DNA from: Cinnamomum chago | Lineage: Eukaryota > Streptophyta > Magnoliopsida > Laurales > Lauraceae | Assembly (NCBI GenBank): GCA_038049695.1 | Contig: CP142453.1 | Location: 129,281,001 to 129,345,000, forward strand | Direction of reading: 5' to 3' | DNA length: 64,000 nt | Shown here: positions 1 through 12,800 of the stretch, in pieces | Layout of the letters: each line of letters begins with the position of its first letter | How positions within the stretch are numbered: position 1 is the stretch's first letter | Position numbers and translations under genes: made by a program | Notes under the pieces: generated by a model | Told to the model about the DNA's origin: nothing | What the model saw: only the letters and a program-made list of their open reading frames with translations | The model's database searches: none

Positions 1-20
1 TGGTTTTGATGGGTCTGTAG

Positions 21-70
21 GAGTTTGGCATTTTGACCAGATGCTTCTCCATGGAGGTGTTGCTGCTTAA
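21..70 (+). CDS. FER: Ferritin paralogue, last exon only (rest lies left of the window)
   Basis: After a TCTGTAG acceptor the exon reads [15 protein letters not shown] and stop, the conserved C-terminus of plant ferritin. It matches the last exon of the complete ferritin gene at 12935-12984 with two or three residue changes, and the downstream 3' flank (71 to about 300) matches 12985 to about 13255 closely. It is therefore the end of a tandem ferritin gene on the same strand, or a duplicated 3' fragment; sequence left of the window is needed to tell these apart. The domain identity is clear; whether the rest of this copy is intact is unknown. Confidence 0.85.
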
Positions 71-288
71 AGATGGAAAAGATTTGCTGGAGTTTTGGCA
101 TTTTCATCAGTCGCTTGCTTCTCTTATGTAGTTGTTGGTTTATTCTCGTAGAGGATCTTTATGAACTAGAAAGTTGTGGAATGAAAAAAATAAAGAGAAT
201 GAAAATAAATTTAATGCGCCTGTTTATTGTCGTGGATGTGGCTATATCATTCCCGGCCAGGCTTTTCTTCTTTGTGGGGTTCCCTGCG

Positions 289-768
289 TATATTGTCCGC
301 TTTTGGGCCTTTGACCAGCATTGTTTTGTTTATAGGGCTGACCCGCAGGCGTTCCCCAAAAGGCCTCAGTACTGCAATAGGCGGGGGTCCGCTCTGATAT
401 CATTTTGTCACAGACCTGTCCCACCAACTTGATATTATCTGCTTTTATGCCTTTGACCTGCAGGGTTGACCCGCAAGCGTCCCCAATAGGCAGGAGTCCA
501 GACTTATGGCCCGGACTTATAGCTAGGATCCGGTACATCCTCCCACACTCAAACAGGAGTCGTCATCGGCTTTGATATCATTTTGTCACATACTCGTCTC
601 CCACTAGCCCGGTATTATCGGCTTTTGCGCCTTTGACCTGCACGATTTTGTTTCTGGGGCTGACCTGCAGGTATCCCTAAAAGGCCTTAGTACTACAATA
701 GGCGGGGGTCTAGACTTATAGTCAAGATTTGGATGTCTCACCTTTTCGATGTGAGATTGGGATGTTAC
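289..768. repeat. Three imperfect units of a dispersed repeat
   Basis: Units start near 289, 432 and 612. Each has a 'TATTRTCNGCTTTT..CCTTTGACC' head, a 'GACCCGCAGGCGTCCCC' core and usually a 'CAATAGGCGGGGGTC' part. The third ends in TCGATGTGAGATTGGGATG then TTACA. One further unit sits after the complete ferritin gene (about 13228-13317), where an LTR-like segment interrupts it. No coding potential; family not identified. Confidence 0.6.
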
Positions 769-2329
769 ATGGATGCAGCATACTCAGTAAACATACACAA
801 AATCTACTATCCAAGTAATGGAAGCAAATTTTATAAGGGATATAGTTATCAGAAACTGGAGTCTATCCCCAACTTAAGTTATGATGATGATGTCAAAGTA
901 TGATTAGCAAGTAACAGCTTGTTATCCATTTTTGCAACTGTGGAAGTGATTGGCCGGATGACAGGGCAGTGGCTGTGGGAGTGACATCTTACAATGAGAA
1001 TTAGTCACCTAGTTTGCTAGAAGGCCTTCAAACTGTGAATTGTTCATTTCCAACTATTTATAGTTTTGTTTGCAAACTGCTTTCATAAAATTCTCTAAGC
1101 TGTCTTATAAATCCATTGGTAAAGTCCTCCAAGTTGATCAAAAGCACACAAGTCCTAGTTTTATGCTACATTGGGCTACTGGTAAGGAGTGATATTTTTA
1201 ACTGAAGACCCAGACCCAGGTACCGATATGTGACTTTAGGGTGCCAACATCACTCAACCAAGAGTGTGTTGGCTAGAGTTATGTTGGCACACCACAGTCC
1301 TATTTATCTACTTTGGTTTATATTTAACTAAAATTTATCGACCATTTTGAGGCATAGGATGTTACTTCCTGGATTTCAATCACACGTTTTACAATTGATC
1401 AATCTAATGATGGATTTATATCATGAACTTGAGGTAAATTAGTTCATCCAACTCGGTGAGCTTGAAGTACTATGAATCAAGGCTAATCAAAGTAACCTTT
1501 CACATAAAACTTTTGGATTAAGTTAAGCCTCAAATTATGAATTGCAAACTCGAAAGAGAATTGGTTGAACTGTGAAATAAGGAACTATGAGTGAGATTGA
1601 AACAAGGAGTGGCACCTCAAGTAGAAGGTTCACTTCAAGACACAACTGGTTTTTTTTTTTTTTTTAGCCTGTTTATGCACACCCTAAACTAACAGTTCCA
1701 AGCAACCGAAGCGAACCACCACACCCCCCAAAATCAGTGTGGCAACCACTTATCTATCCCTCCAAATCACAGGTGAAGGGTGGATAAGGATAGTCTCCCT
1801 ATACAAGCATGAATGGACGGATAGTAGAGAAGTGAGGGTTGTGAGATACAGAATAAACCAGGATTTTGTTGGTTGCTTGTTAAACAAATGTAAATGTTGG
1901 GAGTGCATTAGATTGATCAATGTGTATTAGGGTGGGGGCCACATGGGGGAACAGCATATGGTCTGTTGATCATAATCACGTGTTTTAAGGGGCCCAAACA
2001 TATTACAACAATCATATAAGATAATTTTCCATGTCATGGATGGGGGCTGTGGAGGCCTGCAGGCTGCAGCATAGGGAGAATGCAGTAGCAGCCATAATTT
2101 AGGACCTCATCAAATGAACTTCCATAAAGAAGACTTCGGATTGGGTTGAGCCAGAGCTGCATCTCTCGGTTGCTTGAAAACCCTATTTTGACTACCATTT
2201 CCAAAATTGAAAGCTTCTGCTTCGCCCACCCTACCTATTACTTCAAACGTTCTTCGGCCCTGCCGAAACTCCAACTTACCTTCCAATGGACCACTGGAGC
2301 ATGACAGGAGCTGTCATTTTCGACACTTG
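769..2329. other. Intergenic stretch, no gene seen
   Basis: AT-rich sequence with scattered stops in all frames. The only distinct feature is a T-run at about 1650-1665. Nothing resembling a conserved exon was recognised. Confidence 0.5.
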
Positions 2330-2910: not shown

Positions 2911-3233
2911 TAAAAGATGATGACCTTTTTTGCGGTGGGCAGCCAATGGTTGATTGCAAAGGTCTTCAAGGTTATCTTAACAACCTACCCAGAGAAGGAA
3001 AATGTAAATGAAAAATAACCAACTTAAGATACATGTAATTGAAGGTCATTTTAAGCAGAGAAAACGCACAAACTAAACTTTAACATAGAGACATGCAATA
3101 TATAAAAGAATAATTTTTTTTTAAAGATGCATTTTACGGAGGAAAAGCACAAATTGAAAATCAAACTTTTCAATTTAAAATAAGAGTCTTTTCTGAACTT
3201 GATACTAGTGAAGAAGAATATAAAATGTTATTG

Positions 3234-3560
3234 AGGAGTGGGCTCCACTCGATGGGGAATATTGAAATGTATTTTTGCGCCTCTACTAAAGCCTCGAGGT
3301 TTTGGTATAAATGGCTAGCTGAAAAAACTTACTATGGTATAAGAGTCAACCGGTCGCGAGTTTGGCGCACTTTTCACGACATGCTTTTTTTTTTTTTTTT
3401 TTCAGCACCGAGTAGTTCCTCTTGAGATTTGAATTCGCGACCGGTTGATTCTGATACCATCTTAAATTTCTTTAAATAGTTATTCATACCAAAACCTCGA
3501 GGCTTTAGTAGAGGCAGCATAAATACTTTTCAATATTTCCCTCGGGTGGAGCCCACTCCT
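3234..3560. mobile_element. Foldback element, about 327 bp with ~90-130 bp inverted arms
   Basis: The left arm begins AGGAGTGGGCTCCACTCGA and the right arm is its complement with a few changes. Shared arm blocks include AATATTGAAA, GCCTCTACTAAAGCCTCGAG and TTTTGGTAT. The centre carries a second complementary pair (AACCGGTCGCGA / TCGCGACCGGTT) around a T-run. No ORF of note; superfamily unresolved. Confidence 0.7.
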
Positions 3561-4289
3561 AAAAAAAAAGAGAAATAATATGTGTAGATGATTGTTTGAG
3601 TAGAGAATTAAGAGAGGGAGAGAGACCAAGACAAAGTTCTTTTGCAATGGAAAAAGGGGGGACTAAGTGCTTTTTTAAGTGGGGGCTTGCCCAAATCAGC
3701 CTTATAGCCCTTTGGGCTTTTTTTTTTTTTTTTTTTTTTTCTGGTTGGAGCCCTCACACCGATATATGTGAGTCCGTTGGGCTGCCTTCTTTTCTTGCTG
3801 TGAGTCCGTTGGGCTGCCTTCTTTTCTTGCTCTGGTCTTCTTCCCAAGATAGAATATTTTTTTGAAATCCCTGCCACTCCAATATGCTTTAGGACCATGA
3901 GGTTACTGAGATGTCCTTGTTATTTCTAAAAGAAAAGACGAAGGAGAAGAAGGCGAAGCTCTCAACTGCTGTTTGGAACGAGTGCTCTAAGGTATGAAAT
4001 TTTGGGGCCTTTTCGTTTCTGGGTTTTGTAGAGAATGTATTTTTCTAGGTGGGTTATTTTTGTTTTTATTGTTTCAGTTGATGACATGGGTGTTTTTTAG
4101 ACTTTATTTGATGAAAATGGCTTGATTTTTACTTCTTTTTCCCCTTACATTTTACTTAAGTTTCTGGATCCAGCCCCTAGGTCAGGCCCGACTCGTGCGC
4201 ACGCACGGGGCTTTTGGTAAAATAGTCCAAAATAGCTTAAAGTGTATAGAGTGAAAGAGTGCTCCTATTGGCACAAAAAATTTTACTTT
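3561..4289. other. Intergenic stretch with a 32-bp tandem duplication
   Basis: Units 3767-3798 and 3799-3830 are identical 32-mers following a 22-base T-run. A short exon-like stretch at about 3911-3992 ends at a GGTATG donor-like site but is not recognisable as a known protein. No gene is called. Confidence 0.45.
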
Positions 4290-5040
4290 TCAAACACAAA
4301 GAATTTATCTATTTTTTTATTACATTCTTACCCCTTCATGAAATGTGGGCCAACTTTTGGTAAATTTAAATATGGGATCCACATTTAGAAATTAGAATAT
4401 GGGATCACATTTATAGGATTACAATGTGGGTGCACCTTTTGTAAACGAGACCATATGACCCATATTTATGAATTACAAAGTGGAGCCACACTTTTTGTAA
4501 TTGTAGACATAGGGCCCACCTTTAGAAATTAGAATGTGATGCCCACCTTTAAAAATTATAATATGGGGGTAGCACATTTATAAAATTTACAATGTGGGCC
4601 CACCTTTATAGGAATTATAATGTGGGGCTATACTTTTTGTTAATTGTGAACATGTGACCCACCTTTAAAAAAATTAAAAAGTGGTACCCACATTTAGAAA
4701 TCCAAACATGAGGTCATCATTAAAATGTGGGTCATACTTTTTGTTAATTGTGAACACAGGACCCACCTTTAAAAAATTACAATATGGTACCCACATTTAG
4801 AAATCCGAACATGTGGCCACCATTAAAATGTGATTGTGGACACGGGACCCACCTAGAGAAATTATAATGTGATGCCTACTTTTATAAACTATTTATAATG
4901 TGGTCCCACCATTATAGAATCATAATAGGGGTCCACCTTTTATGATTGTGACCATGTGACCCACCTTTAGGAAATATAAAATGGGGTCACCTCCTTTGGG
5001 ATTGTGATTGTGGGTGCCTACATTTAGGATAAGTGAGATG
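4290..5040. repeat. Degenerate tandem array, period about 40-55 bp
   Basis: More than twelve diverged units alternate 'CCCACCTTTAGAAATTA' with 'AATGTGGG'-type blocks and variants such as 'TTTTGTTAATTGTGAACA'. Spacing is irregular and units are well diverged, so this is an old array. No coding content. Confidence 0.65.
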
Positions 5041-5067
5041 ATTTAGAATCTTCAAATAATATTTTTT

Positions 5068-6345
5068 AGGGGATTTAACCAGAAAAACCCTCTAAAACAG
5101 GCTATTAATGAATTTGGCCCCAATAGAAAAGGCCAGACAGAATAGGCCCTAAATTGATGTTTCTCTTTTCTTTTTTGTCTTTTAGCGTATAGTCGATATC
5201 GACGCTCTCGCCTGAACATTCATTCGTCTCTTCCTCTCTCTCTTATTCTCTCTTGCTCTCTGCAACTGATCTCAAATCATAATCTTTGAGAAGGGGGAAG
5301 AAGGAAAGAGAAAGCTGGTAGGTGTCTGCAGATGAGATGCATGGAGATGGAGGTGTGCGCAGGGGCTGTGAGGGCGGAGTGCAGCAGTGAAGGAGGGGGA
5401 AACGAGAAAAGAAGAGGAGGAAAGAAAGAGAAAAAAAAGGAAAGAGAGGGAGAAGGAAGGACGTGGAGTGCAGTGGGTGGCAAAGGGTAGTGCAGGGAGA
5501 ATGGAGAAGAAGAGGGGGAGAGGGGGAAGGAAGAAAGAAAGAAAGAAATGAAAAAGGAGGAGAGCCATCTCAGTGGGGTATGCAGGTGGGTGTGCGGTGG
5601 CCCATCACGGCTCATCTCCTTCATCTCATCTTCACCATCCCAGGACGCAGACGGTAGACCTCTCCCTCCTTCTCCTTTGTCTTCTCCGGCCAGCCAACCC
5701 ACCACTCCTTCATCCTTTCCATCTCCCTCCCATCAACCTCCATCTCACCCTATCCGTAGCCCTCACGCATCTCCCTTATCTCCACGCAGCCCATCATCAG
5801 CTCTTCTTCATCTCCATCTCCACGAGGAATGGAATGCAAGTTCGGAGTCCTTAAACCGATCATTTAATTGTATCCATATCAAGCTGGAGGTGTTTTCAAA
5901 TAAAGCCCATGAAGGTGTTCGATGAAATGACGAAGAGAAAGGAGAAGGAAATTTCACGCTCATTTCTCTTATTTTTCTCATGGGAAAGAAGTCTGCTGCT
6001 GTTGTGGGGTTTGTCCTTCCTTGATTTTGCTCACTAGAAGATATTGGATGAAATGAATTAGAGAACATGAGTGGGGTTTTCATTTCTTGATTTTTGTAAT
6101 TTTCAAACATAGTTCATGTATATATATTTTGAAATGTAAGGTCAATACACAATGAACTTGTAATGTTGTGAATGGTTTCCCCCTATTTGAGATGTTTGAA
6201 ATGTGTTTGAGGAGTTTGAAAGGTATTTGAAATGTCCGAACTCTTGAGCTTTTGAAATGTCTGAGTGAAGGGTCGAAACCTCCCCACCAAAACTCTCTAC
6301 TATGACGTTCAAGGATGAAATTGGTATTGGTTGAATCGGTGGAAG
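5068..6345. repeat. Left inverted arm of the long-TIR element
   Basis: Pairs with 8138-9424. It contains an AGTCGATATCGAC palindrome about 130 bp from the outer end (5191-5203), then a strongly purine-biased block (about 5280-5580) followed by a pyrimidine-rich block. Differences between arms are few small substitutions plus an indel near 9003 in the right arm. Confidence 0.85.
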
Positions 6346-6955
6346 CATTTTTTGGAAGGGTGATGCAAGAGTCAATGTGAACTCTTTTTTTGTTGGTGTT
6401 AATAGTTGGTGCTTATGTGATAGAAGATGCAGCCGTTCTGTACAGTGTACAGTCTACTGAAGCATTTTTTAGAAGGGGGATGCAAGAGTCAATGTGAATT
6501 CCTTTTTGGTTGGTGTTCATATTTGATGTTAATGTGATAGAAGATGCAGCCGTTCTAGACAGTGTACAATCTACTGAAGCATTTTTTGGAAGGGGGATGC
6601 AAGAGTCAATGTGAACTCCTTTTTGGTTGGTGTTAATATTTGGTGTTAATGTGATAGAAGATGCAACCATTCTGGATAGTGTACAGTCTACTGAAGCATT
6701 TTTTGGAAGTGAGATGAAAGAGTTAATGTGAACTCCTCTTTGGTTGGTGTTAGTATTTGGTGTTAATGTGATAGAAGATGTAGCCTTCTGGACAATGTAA
6801 TCTCTACATGGAAGAGATTTTTTGGATGGGGGATGCCCATGTTAATGTCATCATGTCCATTTTTATTGGTGTTAATGTAATTGATAGAAGATGTAGTCGT
6901 GATGGGCTTGCACATTTTGTTGAAGCATTTTTTGGAAGGGCACAAGTGTTAAACA
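6342..6955. repeat. Tandem array, ~117-bp unit, about five copies
   Basis: Units begin near 6417, 6535, 6652, 6769 and 6888 with (G/T)TGATAGAAGATG and each includes a 'GAAGCATTTTTTGGAAG' and a 'TTGGTTGGTGTTAATA' block; a partial unit starts at the inner edge of the left arm. The last two units are the most diverged. No plausible protein. Confidence 0.75.
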
Positions 6956-7140
6956 TACTTTTTCCTTTTATAAAGATCACCCTTTTTTGGGGTTATATGT
7001 TGTTGAGAACTTATCTATGATAATATAATGGTTGTTTGTATTGTCCCGCTAATGATTTTTTATTTTTTTCCACTTTTATTATTGAAAATGATTAGCAAAC
7101 CCCATCTAGAGCTACACTTAGTAAGTTATAGTATTATAAC

Positions 7141-7421
7141 ATAGTCGATATCGACTATGACTGTGTTTTTTATGTTTCAGCTAAATAGTCGATATCGACT
7201 ATGACTGTGTTTTTTATGTTTCAGTTAAATAGTCGATATCGACAATGACAATAGTCGATATCGACTATGACTGTGTTTTTTATGTTTCAGCTAAATAGTC
7301 GATATCGACTATTACAATAGTCGATATCGACTATGACTGTGTTTTTTATGTTTCAGCTAAATAGTCGATATCGACTATGACTGTGTTTTTTAGGCTTCAG
7401 CTAAATAGTCGATATCGACTA
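7141..7421. repeat. Palindrome minisatellite, eight copies of (A)GTCGATATCGAC
   Basis: Copies of ATAGTCGATATCGAC start near 7141, 7184, 7229, 7251, 7294, 7317, 7361 and 7405. The spacing alternates about 44 bp (spacer TATGACTGTGTTTTTTATG then TTTCAGCTAA) and 22 bp. The same palindrome occurs once in each terminal arm (5191-5203, 9288-9300) and I saw it nowhere else in the window. Confidence 0.85.
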
Positions 7422-8137
7422 TTGGTCGTATTAAACAAACCAGAGAATGATACATTCCATTGTCCTAAACATTGTTCTGAATACATTGGTGCATTCCATT
7501 CACACATTCAATTAACAACCATACATTAACATACCATTCAATTTCAAATAATTATACATGAAGTTTCACAATATAAATCCAACTGCCCAAAACTATAGAA
7601 GTTCCACAACCACTGCCCACAAGTTCCACAATTTTAATTACGAAGTAAAGAAAGTAAGTATCTATGTTTGGCCTCTCCTTCTACTGCCCAAAAAACCTTC
7701 ACAAAACTTCTTCTAACCAGTTAAGAGAATTACATCAAACTAGCATTCACTTGTCAACTTCTTTTAAATAACTCAATGACAATTCTGCTACGGAAGTAAG
7801 GGATGTCAGACTGTGTAAATGTGATAGGACGACAGTGAACACAATGCTCTGCGAATGCCACAGTGAAAACTTCGTAGTGATTACAATTGTCTTGATGATG
7901 AATGTCTTCTTTAAACAGGATAGTCCATAAAAATGGATTCGTCCAGTACTTTATTTAAATCGTTGCTAGATACCATGGTACAAATACTGGCTAGTTCATC
8001 ATCTCTACATGAAAGAGATGTTTGTTAATAAAACACAATGCTACAGATATTAATGAAGATGGGTACTACATGAAAGTAATGAGGAAAAATTAGTATAGAG
8101 TTTTGGTGGGGAAGGTTTCATCCGACTCATTTCGCAA
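7422..8137. other. Unique central segment of the long-TIR element
   Basis: AT-rich, no ORF above background and no recognised protein. It could be captured genomic sequence. A partial extra copy of the inner arm motif (GTTTTGGTGGGGAAGGTTTCA) at about 8101-8120 repeats 8191-8210. Confidence 0.5.
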
Positions 8138-9424
8138 CTTCCACTGATTTAGCCAATACCAATTTCATCCTTGAACGTCATAGTTGAAAGTTTTGGTGGG
8201 GAAGGTTTCAGTCCTTCACTCAGACATTTCAAAAGCTCAAGAGTTTCAGACATCTCAAACACATTTCAAACATCTCAAATAGGGGGAAACCATTCACAAC
8301 ATTACAAGTTCATTATGTATTGACCTTACATTTCAAAATATATATACATGAAATATGTTTGAAAATTACAAAAATCAAGAAATGAAAACCCCACTCATGT
8401 TCTCTAATTCCTTTCATCCAATATCTCCTAGTGAGCAAAATCAAGGAAGGACAAACCCCACAATAGCAGCAGACTTCTTTCCCATGAGAAAAATAAAAGA
8501 AATGAGCGTGAAATTTCCTTCTCCTTTCTCTTCGTCATTTCATCGAACACCTTCATGGGCTTTATTTGAAAACACCTCCAGCTTGATATGGATACAATTA
8601 AATGATCGGTTTAAGGACTCCGAACTTGCATTCCATTCCTCGTGGAGATGGAGATGAAGAAGAGCTGATGATGGGCTGCGTGGAGATAAGGGAGATGCGT
8701 GAGGGCTACGGATAGGGTGAGATGGAGGTTGATGGGAGGGAGATGGAAAGGATGAAGGAGTGGTGGGTTGGCTGGCCGGAGAGGACAAAGGAGAAGGAGG
8801 GAGAGGTCTGCCGTCTGCGTCCTGGGATGGTGAAGATGAGATGAAGGAGATGAGCCGTGATGGGCCACCGCACACCCACCTGCATACCCCACTGAGATGG
8901 CTCTCCTCCTTTTTCATTTCTTTCTTTCTTTCTTCCTTCCCCCTCTCCCCCTCTTCTTCTCCTTTCTCCCTGCACTACCCTTTGCCACCCACTGCACTCC
9001 ACGCCAATGCACACGTCCTTTCTTTCTTCCTTCCTTCTCCCTCTCTTTCCTTTTTTTTTTCTCTTTCTTTCCTCCTCTTCTTTTCTCGTTTCCCCCTCCT
9101 TCACTGCTGCACTCCGCCCTCACAGCCCCTGCGCACACCTCCATCTCCATGCATCTCATCTGCAGACACCTACCAGCTTTCTCTTTCCTTCTTCCCCCTT
9201 CTCAAAGATTATGATTTGAGATCAGTTGCAGAGAGCAAGAGAGAATAAGAGAGAGAGGAAGAGACGAATGAATGTTCAGGCGAGAGCGTCGATATCGACT
9301 ATAGCGCTAAAAGACAAAAAAGAAAAGAGAAACATCAATTTAGGGCCTATTCTGTCTGACCTTTTCTATTGGGGCCAAATTCATTAATAGCCTGTTTTAG
9401 AGGGTTTTTCCCGTTAAATCCCCT
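8138..9424. repeat. Right inverted arm of the long-TIR element
   Basis: Complement of 5068-6345. It contains the mirrored palindrome at 9288-9300 and a pyrimidine-rich tract at about 8900-9230. The two arms could form a 1.28-kb duplex in an RNA that reads through the element. Confidence 0.85.
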
Positions 9425-9663
9425 ATTTTTTAAAAGGCAAGAAATAAAAAAGAAAATACTGTGCCAGCAAATTGTTTCTTAAAAACAAAGAGTAAAGATT
9501 TTCTTTTGTTTTCTATACCCTTTATCCGGTGAGAACATGGAAACAGTACATGTATCGGATGTTCGGTAACGGTTTCGGTCACGGGTGTGGAGTGTGAACG
9601 CAAAGATTCCTACCTTTTCAACCTTACCTTACTGCGAGATATTTCATTGGATTCCGCCGAAGG

Positions 9664-9677
9664 AACGAGGTGGCCAC
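9664..9677 (+). promoter_or_regulatory. IDRS-like iron-response motif upstream of ferritin
   Basis: AACGAGGTGGCCAC matches 11 of 14 positions of the iron-dependent regulatory sequence CACGAGGCCGCCAC known from maize and Arabidopsis ferritin promoters. It lies about 209 bp upstream of the start codon. Function is inferred from the match and position only. Confidence 0.5.
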
Positions 9678-9750
9678 GCGCCTTTCCCATAACACAATAT
9701 CGTCCGTCCACTTGTCGCCATATGAGCGGCCCAAATTAAAAGCTGGCGTC

Positions 9751-9764
9751 CACGAGGTCCGGAC
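9751..9764 (+). promoter_or_regulatory. Second, weaker IDRS-like motif
   Basis: CACGAGGTCCGGAC keeps the CACGAGG half of the IDRS exactly but matches only 10 of 14 positions overall. It is 122 bp upstream of the ferritin start codon. A CTATATC stretch at about 9794-9800 could be the TATA element, followed by a CT-rich leader. Confidence 0.35.
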
Positions 9765-9885
9765 TCGACCGTTTTCTTCTCTCTCCCAACCTCTATATCT
9801 TCTCCTTCTCCCTCTCTTCGTCTTCAACATTTCCATCTTCTGCTTCTTCTTCTTTCTCTCTCTGGTTTCAATCCCATTCAAAGCC

Positions 9886-12800
9886 ATGTCTCTTGGATTT
9901 GCTTCTGCTTTCTCTGTTCCCACAAATGCTTTTGGAGGGACCCAAAACCGATTTTCCTCTTCTTCATCTTTCTTTCTCTATGCTGTGAGATCTCCCTGTT
10001 CTTCTCCATCTGTTATTGGTATTTCATTGAGGAAAAGGGGAGATGGGTTTGTTGCAATGGGTGCAAGGGAGACGAATAGTCCGGTTCTTACGGGTGTTCT
10101 TTTTGATCCCTCTGAAGAGGTGAAGAAGGAGCTCCAGATGGTGCCCAACATGCCCCATGTCTCGCTCGCTCGTCAGAAGTTTGAGGATGATAGCGAAGCA
10201 GCCATCAATGAGCAGATCAAGTGGGTTTCTTGGGTTTGTTTATTTTTGTGTTTTTGAGATGTTGGGTTTTGTTCTTCTTGTAAATGTTTCTCTAGATTAC
10301 TCTTTTTTGATGTCTCTGTTTCTTGCTCTTCTATTTTTTCTTGTTTATGTTTATATCTTGTTTCTGCTTGGGTTTGATATATGACCTTTTGGGTCTTTGG
10401 GTTTAATCCATTGGTTTTGTTGCAACTCAAATTGCAGTGTGGAATACAACGTTTCATACGTCTATCATTCTTTGTTTGCCTACTTCGACAGGGACAATGT
10501 TGCCCTCAAAGGCCTTGCAAAGTATTTGACAAACCACTTTCTCTCTCAGTTCTACTTCTGATTTCCCATGTTTTTTTAAACTAATTTACGTCTTGATCCC
10601 TCAGCTTCTTCAAGGAGGCGAGCGTAGAGGAACGAGAGCATGCAGAGAAATTAATGAAATACCAGGTTGTTTTTTCTTAAATAGTCTAGCTTTGTGTTTA
10701 AATCCAAAGGCCAAAGTAGTAATGGCAACTGAGTCCTTCTATTTCCTATTTCAAGAGTTTTATTGTAGCTGGCAAAAGTACTTTAATATTTTGGTCCTTT
10801 AGGCATGTTTGCGTAACGCGGAAAAGTGGACGGTGGTTTTCGGCGGAAAATCCATTTTTTAGGTGTTTGGGGTGGAATAATTCCACATAAACGTTTTCCT
10901 GCCTCTCTGTATTTTCCTTAATAATAGTGGAGAAATGAATTTGGGGGGTTTCCTCGAAAACTTCTCCCTCTTTTCCATTTCAACCCAAAACCCGACAACT
11001 CTTTAATTTTTTTTTTGGTTTAATTAAATAAATTATTATTTGATGTTGAATAAATAATATACATATTATGTTATTTTTATTCAAAAAAACTGTTTTACTA
11101 AATAATAAAGTTTGATTTTCCGAAGTTTTCATTTCTATGAAATTTGCTGACGTGACAGTTTCTCTTTTCCGTGAAAATGGTGTGTACACAAACGTGCTCT
11201 TAAATTCTGTATTGGATATTAGAATGTCTGTGATTTGATTATTTTAAGCAGCATTTCTATATTTCTATTTTATACAACATGAGCTGACAGTGATGATGGT
11301 GATTTTTGTATGCAATTAGGATCTATTTAAGTTAATTTAAATTTTGTGTTGGATCCATAAAATGCAGAGTTTGGGATTGTGCTTGGACACCTCACTAGTG
11401 TTGATTTTTTTATTTTTTTTTTATATGTGTAACTATACTTGTACAACTTGGCTGAAAATTGATTCTTGATCTTCTCAGAACAAGAGAGGGGGAAAGGTTA
11501 AGTTACTGTCTATAGTAATGCCTCTCACCGAATTTGATCATCCCGAGAAAGGAGATGCCTTGTATGGTAAGTCCCACTTACAGAATTTAATTTCATTTAA
11601 ATTCATGGAAGCTTGTTATGCTCTCATAGGGCATTTCAGGTAGGGATGTAAATGGGTCATCGATTCTCCAATTACCCGGAGGTTCCGACCCGTTAAAAAT
11701 TATATTTTTTAATATCAGTTCCGATCCTTATGTAGGCCTCGATAAGTAAATAGATCCGGGTAAGGTTCCACCTTGGTTCGGACCCATGGACTCGAGACCC
11801 GACATATTACCTTAATTTTCGAAAATCTCTGTTAAAACCATATTTTTTAATATCATTTTCTATTTAGACCCGAATCCAGACCCGTCCCATATATGGTTTT
11901 AGTTCTGGTTCCGGAGCCAAGAAATCAGGTCCAGATCCGGATCCAAACCCGTCCAATATATGGTTTTGGTTTTGGTTCTGAAGCTAAGAAATCGAGTCCG
12001 GATCCGGATCCGGTTACACCTTGGTTTCGGTTCCATGAACCGACCTGCTTACAACCCTAATTCCAGGGTTAAATGTCATATTCCTACTAGGCTGGATCAT
12101 TGCCTATTTTATCAATAGTTACATGGTTCGACCCAGCCTGTCCCATGCTTAACTCTACCCATTGGGTATCCATCATTTAATTCCCAGTCCTTTTGTACCA
12201 TAGGACCATGGAAGCCTGTCCCCTTCTATTACTTAGATGTCATGATCCTGGTCAGATTTCACTCATAAGGTGCTACAGAATTCTTCGTTCCAGCTAAATC
12301 AACTGTCACGTTGTGCTTGGTTATACATAAACTCATCTACTAAAACTGTGGTCCTGTTGGTTGTATTATAAGCTAACTAGTTCTGCGTGTTTTCTCATAT
12401 CAGCAATGGAGCTTGCTCTGTCGTTGGAGAAGTTGACAAATGAGAAGCTTCTGAAATTGCATGCTGTAATAGATATAGCATCTCTTAACCTTTGTTTGCT
12501 TTGTTCTCTATGCCTTTCCTACATTTTTATTAACATTCAATTGTGGTGGTAATTTTGTATATGAACAGGTAGCAGTTCGATGCAATGATGCGCAGATGAC
12601 TGACTTCATTGAAGGCAATTTCTTGGCTGAGCAGGTAACGCATGCTTCCCTTAGTTTGGTTTGCTCAGAAAGTTTATTTTTCTTTACAGTTGGCAGATTG
12701 TCTAGAACCAAGTAGCATGTTTTCTAAGTTGGTTTTCTTCAGGTGGATTCCATCAAGAAGATATCTGAATATGTTGCTCAATTAAGAAGGGTGGGAAAAG

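Follow-up and report, generated by a model that had tools for sequence, protein, structure and literature searches.

The window analysed here, a 64,000-nucleotide stretch of the Cinnamomum chago genome (contig CP142453.1, positions 129,281,001 to 129,345,000), carries ahead of a ferritin gene a 4,355-bp element that begins with GGGG, ends with CCCC and is very probably a nonautonomous Mutator-like element (MULE) with long terminal inverted repeats (TIRs) in a plant genome. The element occupies positions 5069 to 9423 on the plus strand, limits that rest on the same two ends being found in 20 of the 21 copies read, and element position 1 is window position 5069. Comparison of its flanks identified an exact 9-bp direct repeat, TATTTTTTA, at 5060 to 5068 and at 9424 to 9432, the left and right copies of a target-site duplication; an original prediction made from the sequence of this stretch had recognized the flanking repeat but gave its length as 7 bp. 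Alignment of the arms places the left one at 5069 to 6345 (element 1 to 1277, plus strand) and the right one at 8138 to 9423 (element 3070 to 4355, minus strand). Ungapped blocks of the two pair at 97 to 98%, in agreement with the near-identical inverted arms first described, and the whole arms pair at 94.6% when gaps are counted.

Within the arms, a core terminal repeat can be set apart at 5069 to 5207 on the left (element 1 to 139, plus strand) and 9284 to 9423 on the right (element 4216 to 4355, minus strand), with 81 to 84% and 82 to 85% identity, respectively, to the ends of transposase-bearing relatives. Each core repeat contains a subterminal palindrome (5189 to 5206 and 9285 to 9302) centered on the 12-bp core GTCGATATCGAC, at 5192 to 5203 and 9288 to 9299. 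Two arrays lie between the arms. A 117-bp tandem array at 6342 to 6836 has 4.2 copies, with an extra partial unit at 6909 to 6940; the array had been noted before, at a copy number of five. Eight palindromes, ATAGTCGATATCGACTAT, follow at 7141 to 7422, seven exact and one with a single mismatch, spaced by 22 or 44 bp. This minisatellite had also been noted, and the core copy in each arm is an addition to that description. On the minus strand are a relic of a Ulp1/Peptidase_C48 exon (7741 to 7945) and a relic of the stretch that precedes such an exon (7939 to 8092). Of 18 reading frames of at least 60 amino acids in the element, the longest is 162 amino acids and none is a transposase frame. 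The earlier view that the element has no transposase and holds arrays instead of genes is accurate in that no intact gene is present, and incomplete in view of the two relics. A Pfam scan of four arm frames and the ferritin start returned no family, and an Rfam scan of the window at gathering scores returned no match.

The element belongs to a recently amplified, dispersed family that makes 9-bp target-site duplications. Genome searches covered the 1.06-Gb source assembly, and the copy counts they gave are lower bounds. The search with the first 200 bp that the original prediction had recommended yielded 425 first-look candidates, and identity was 99 to 100% in each of the 40 scored. With the interior as the query, there were 305 candidates, and 39 of the 40 scored places, the window included, matched at full length with 94 to 100% identity, the remaining one being split. 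We read 20 copies besides that of the window, and the duplication matched at all 9 positions in 18 of the 21. The copies at four insertion sites (L041, L042, L043, and L044/L045) agree with one another at all 4,355 bases, from which the window copy departs at 2, and a second group consists of five copies identical to each other. L044 and L045 count as one insertion that was duplicated, since the site is the same in their two stretches, which are 261 kb apart. At a mutation rate of 7e-9 per site and generation, the near-identity of the copies points to an age on the order of ten thousand generations. The arms themselves are older: 18 of their differences (of 22, 24, and 26) are common to three subfamilies, which puts the divergence of the arms before the burst and makes it no guide to the date of the insertions.

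Several details temper this picture of mobility. The duplications of L042, L047, and L055, which are among the 18, fall in simple repeats and tell less, and incomplete matches were found at L046 (8 of 9), L051 (7 of 9), and L058 (1 of 9), the last being the copy whose right end is altered. Mobility was also read from copies and empty sites, with no transposition event seen. Two observations concern the surroundings of particular copies. Between 28.37 and 28.83 Mb of contig C3, L044/L045 and loci for the transposase MURA and for a plant mobile domain (PMD) repeat at 261-kb spacing, which is either a segmental duplication or an assembly duplicate. A tRNA-Glu (CTC) gene lies close to another inserted copy (L055:5205-5277).

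Empty sites complete the case for a transposed unit, as had been proposed. The joined flanks of the window element gave 41 matches, of which 39 cross the junction and the other two are its own flanks. The best junction match lies 8.5 kb upstream, in a tandem ferritin paralogue (C3:129277300-129279200, L069) that is 95% identical over 1,614 bp, coding start included, and has a single TATTCTTTA at the insertion point and no insert. At L050, L056, and L059, local repeats show the insertion sites of those copies uninterrupted.

The neighboring ferritin gene starts at 9886 on the plus strand, 462 bases past the element end and thus at the distance of about 460 bp first reported. Its frame is open to 10254 and matches "Ferritin-4, chloroplastic" (PDB 3a68) at 6.8e-15. 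Measured between their upstream regions, the two ferritin genes of the tandem are about 8.5 kb apart; where read (L069 and window 9424 to 11000), they are 95% identical, and the insert is present in the window copy only, making the pair a natural with/without comparison. The element was inserted at the margin of a degenerate repeat (window 4362 to 5068, with units of about 28 and 103 bp), and this repeat together with the empty site was found at dozens of places in the genome. On the 3' side of the ferritin start, window positions of about 10964 to 11088 match the joined flanks of L059 at 86.5%; this is another dispersed repeat, a target of family insertion elsewhere.

Relatives that carry a transposase place the element in its superfamily. 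A search for the terminus pattern at up to 3 mismatches found 359 places, sister families included, and led to K, an element of 12,416 bp (C4:39846870-39859285). Its relative K2 (C1:28366129-28378219), both ends of which were read, is flanked by an exact 9-bp duplication, TTAATGAAA, and these two elements of about 12 kb share the terminal ~140 bp with the window element. Pfam matches in K were MULE (PF10551, 2.2e-19), DBD_Tnp_Mut (PF03108, 2.6e-13), SWIM (PF04434, 3.3e-10), and Peptidase_C48 (4.3e-8). In gene order, a MURA gene and a PMD/Ulp1-like gene face each other; the PMD scored 4.9e-42 in K2, and the PMD exon of K, which has one stop, is 82% identical to that of K2. Genome-wide scoring of MURA loci, from which the K2 stretch 28374601-28376529 is known, found an uninterrupted 869-amino-acid frame in 18 of 85 scored loci, among them K2, where it lies between matching ends. 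A PMD match lay within 15 kb of 60 of the 85 loci, convergent in all 60 (144 PMD places scored of 3,079 candidates). The protein encoded by four K2-type PMD exons is identical, and by this measure the K2 family too seems to have been active recently. DUF1985 was without a match in the 10 frames scanned in K and K2, a scan in which introns were unmodeled and frames below 100 amino acids excluded, so that exons could be missed.

TIRs of Mutator elements are commonly hundreds of base pairs long, and the arms here reach 1.28 kb. The 9-bp duplication falls within the 8 to 11 bp that the available text of PMC6446971 gives for the superfamily. Because K and K2 share its termini and carry MURA, the window element is a nonautonomous MULE, and they are the transposase-bearing relatives that had been called for to fix the superfamily, which is Mutator. 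Less favorable are the flanks of K itself, whose repeat ATCTATCTA lies within a TCTA run and could be read as 5 or 13 bp as well as 9, and the MURA reading of K, which is split in two frames.

Two further observations concern the genes of these relatives. The Ulp1-like domain of K2 (L063:6449-7060) has N in EFYNSL and keeps the Cys stretch NGNDCGVF; a catalytic Asp is usual at the former position of Ulp1 peptidases, and the peptidase activity of the domain may, to judge from these residues, be altered. A further MURA group (C6:75461933, C3:129651338, and others) has 78 to 79% identity and 714-amino-acid frames, many with PMD neighbors. This group may use another motif, L065 beside one of its members being without the palindrome within 1.9 kb.

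The interior of the element derives from the same relatives. Element positions 1274 to 2350 align in reverse to K 8632-7580 at 72.7%, 2673 to 2877 to K 7127-6923, inside the C48 exon, at 85.9%, and 2871 to 2998 to K 6011-5879 at 83.6%; K2 aligns in the same order at 69 to 85%, reaching 84.8% over the relic of the stretch preceding the exon. The 117-bp array thereby corresponds to an array of about 101 bp that adjoins the MURA gene of K, and the palindrome array corresponds to the central array of K and K2, both in reverse. Since the interior aligns to the center of K and K2, both arrays and the Ulp1 relic were inherited rather than picked up. The idea that the cargo is unrelated to the family was rejected, and the cargo is not the unusual one it had been taken for: its arrays have their homologues in the central intergenic region of gene-bearing relatives.

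The arms are harder to trace. The repeat shared with relatives stops directly past the palindrome, about 137 to 142 bp in. Nine ends or end regions were compared with the arms (K left and right, K2 left, L064 to L068, and L070). The terminal ~74 to 142 bp matched at both ends of K, at the left end of K2 and in L067, L068, and L070; L066 gave short matches around the palindrome, and L064 and L065 gave none. The inner arm (element 140 to 1277) matched none of the nine, and the notion that it is the leader of one of the relatives read was not borne out. When the inner arm was the query, 40 scored places of 329 candidates matched at 98 to 100%, 39 of which lie by their coordinates in known copies; no host donor, whose captured gene fragment would mark a Pack-MULE, was among these 40, and a distant donor would be hidden. 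A GCTC mark occurs in both arms and in three of four MURA-side ends (K, K2, and L070), and both PMD-side ends read carry TAT, so that the GCTC mark suggests that a MURA-side end was copied to both sides.

An ancestor of the K/K2 type, a MULE carrying a PMD/Ulp1 gene, would account for this structure, and we strongly infer that it lost its MURA gene and most of its PMD-C48 gene. It would have retained the core terminal repeat of about 140 bp and the central intergenic region and acquired, at each end, about 1.1 kb of additional inverted sequence. Against these readings stand the MURA-side end L067, from which the GCTC mark that points to a MURA-side origin of the arms is missing, and the inner arm, for which neither the immediate donor nor the source of the extension was found, as it is unmatched in the nine ends or end regions compared.

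Three lineages have the palindrome GTCGATATCGAC both close to the ends and within the central array. In seven aligned ends (from the window element, K, K2, and L067), the longest invariant run is ATAGTCGATATCGAC, 15 columns, a length reached in 60 of 20,000 column shuffles. Across the genome, the 18-mer was found at 1,917 places with at most 1 mismatch (none for a backwards control), and the 26-bp array linker was found at 732 places with at most 3 mismatches, so palindromes outnumber linkers. Among 37 units of the window element, K, and K2 taken at up to 4 mismatches, the CpG positions are kept at 97 to 100% and outer positions 2, 3, and 16 at 86 to 89%; the rest of the element has a CpG observed/expected ratio of 0.13 to 0.47. 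A symmetric variant, TTGTCGATATCGACAA, is changed on both flanks of the core (TTG...CAA) and was found at 162 exact places, with none for its control. For C1 and C2, the two contigs with complete listings, all 6 scored MURA genes of 72 to 74% identity have it within 25 kb and none of the 19 others do (Fisher p 6e-6, to be read with the six genes being one clade and not independent). One end was read beside each of two MURA genes of this sister clade (L066 beside C9:47882477 and L071 beside C2:85547337), and in both, the variant occupies the same subterminal place within a terminus that has diverged strongly. Such retention of a symmetric core, with both of its flanks altered from one clade to the other, is the pattern expected of a homodimer site. 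Among the literature matches listed for the motif letters, there was no transposon paper by title and none with the 18-mer.

Other observations pull away from a binding site. The linker is conserved as well, and conservation within the array therefore does not single out the palindrome. The division of 6 of 6 from 0 of 19 separates a single clade from all others and may go back to one event. In L066 and L071, a second, adjacent copy is asymmetric (TTG...CTA); the window element, K, and K2 have 13 units that depart from the 18-mer, 1 of them symmetric and 12 not; and in the arms of the window element, the symmetry of the palindrome is limited to the core. These asymmetric units make symmetry of the outer bases less strict and lower the odds of a binding site. 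Neither the palindrome nor a terminus was seen within 1.9 kb in L064 and L065, which adjoin two further MURA genes.

On balance, we lean toward GTCGATATCGAC as the binding site of a dimeric DNA-binding protein encoded by the element family. The likeliest candidate for that protein, at clearly less than an even chance overall, is MURA, and PMD-C48 comes next with a distinctly smaller one. MURA from a related intact element most likely moves the window element in trans and would recognize the core TIR, palindrome included. The central array would supply added sites for MURA or for the PMD-Ulp1 protein, and it would have been retained because elements binding this protein would move better or would better stay active.

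Each of the competing explanations accounts for part of these data. The central palindrome array could be a neutral, hitchhiking minisatellite, with only the subterminal copies, or none, being of consequence; tandem arrays expand by slippage, the linker is conserved along with the palindrome, deviating units are mostly asymmetric, and a second array, that of 117 bp, lies in the same element without any palindrome. We nevertheless hold this to be doubtful, as the core is invariant subterminally in seven ends where the array linker is absent, the sister clade has a variant changed on both sides, and the array occupies the same central place in the window element, K, and K2. The same palindrome arrays might instead serve as cis-targets of a sequence-specific anti-silencing factor, the PMD-Ulp1 protein of the large relatives, that, like the VANC proteins on the motif arrays of VANDAL MULEs, would keep even transposase-less copies unmethylated and mobile despite long arms prone to siRNA production, which we rate as unlikely. 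A PMD gene does accompany MURA at 60 of the 85 scored loci, always convergent, and the CpG observed/expected ratio is 2.1 in the palindrome array against 0.13 in the adjoining 117-bp array and 0.13 to 0.47 in the element outside the palindrome array. Noncoding motif arrays and a motif change between families recall the targets of VANC21 and VANC6 in the available text of PMC5735166, VANC genes with Ulp1 are reviewed in what is available of PMC13317346, and this very role is one that Ikeda et al. speculate on for MULE-captured PMDs in the accessible part of PMC5418596. The high CpG ratio is partly due to two CpGs inside the motif, however, and 13 of 30 singleton changes are C to T or G to A, 3 of the 13 at CG, too few to argue for methylation. 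DUF1985 was unmatched in the frames scanned, the motif also lies in the core TIR, where it fits a transposase site at least equally well, and maize MURA itself is reported to cause TIR hypomethylation in the available portion of PMC10398659.

The inverted arms provide two other explanations. That their main role is to give rise, as a hairpin, to small RNAs silencing the element family or the ferritin gene strikes us as improbable. Their complementarity extends over 1.28 kb, and long TIRs of MULEs are often sources of small interfering RNAs (siRNAs), according to the accessible text of PMC10398659, but the arms are unmatched beyond ~140 bp in the ends of relatives compared, so inner-arm siRNAs are not expected to target those elements, and the 18 arm-arm differences common to three subfamilies give no sign that perfect pairing is kept up. 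Small RNAs from a transcript through both arms, beside the ferritin promoter as originally suggested, may possibly arise. A local inverted duplication instead of a transposon, the explanation originally reserved for the case that neither further copies nor an empty site turned up, has nothing in its favor beyond the arms themselves; it is refuted by the 39 of 40 full-length interiors, the 9-bp duplications, and the empty sites, and we give it practically no weight.

Beyond the reading of the palindrome as a protein-binding site, the TIR-bearing MULE lineage could have a sequence-specific system of its own, in which a dyad-symmetric motif is paired with a PMD-Ulp1 protein that counters silencing at the arrays. 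We offer this tentatively, as a proposal with the odds against it, in which the motif would lie in both the TIR and the central array, be retained by transposase-less copies, and diverge together with the transposase clade. If true, such a system would explain the recent burst of a family whose 1.28-kb arms are prone to siRNA production. The arrays would then be cis-targets through which PMDs borne by MULEs could counter silencing, a role on which Ikeda et al. only speculated. As a nonautonomous MULE, the element is ordinary in kind, and its state is unusually clear, with identical dispersed copies and, in the same genome, relatives with intact MURA frames. Through its palindrome, two questions become directly testable, namely by which element protein the arrays are read and whether MULE-borne PMD genes act in anti-silencing, and the two natural motif versions, each tied to a MURA clade, are a ready-made specificity swap.

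Published systems, as far as the available portions of their descriptions go, resemble this element in different respects. Long-TIR nonautonomous MULEs (Ferguson and Jiang 2012, PMC3310237) likewise have Mutator-like ends and long TIRs, have multiplied with no apparent function in the interior, and can hold acquired sequence in extended TIRs. That paper deals with tandem TIRs, whereas the window element has one long TIR per end and an interior that is the central region of gene-bearing relatives, palindrome array included. PMD-carrying MULEs (Ikeda et al. 2017, PMC5418596) likewise combine a PMD gene with MURA. Their PMD, reported from grasses and Amborella, is described as a fusion with the transposase; in K and K2, by contrast, it is joined with Ulp1/C48 on the strand opposite to MURA and convergent with it, and the nonautonomous derivative in the window keeps only a relic. 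VANDALs are also Mutator-type elements, whose VANC proteins bind short arrayed motifs and bring about a loss of methylation (PMC5735166, PMC10398659), and in some the second gene carries Ulp1, the Kaonashi genes included (PMC13317346). As in those elements, a short motif is arrayed here in noncoding DNA and differs between families, the sister-clade variant being known as pairs near the ends. VANDALs are described as having degenerate TIRs, unlike the clear to very long TIRs of the window element, K, and K2, in which the motif has a palindromic core and lies inside the TIR as well; VANC is a DUF1985 gene, and the frames scanned in K and K2 showed no DUF1985. The VANDAL/VANC and PMD-MULE systems are thus parallels to this element rather than groups to which it belongs.

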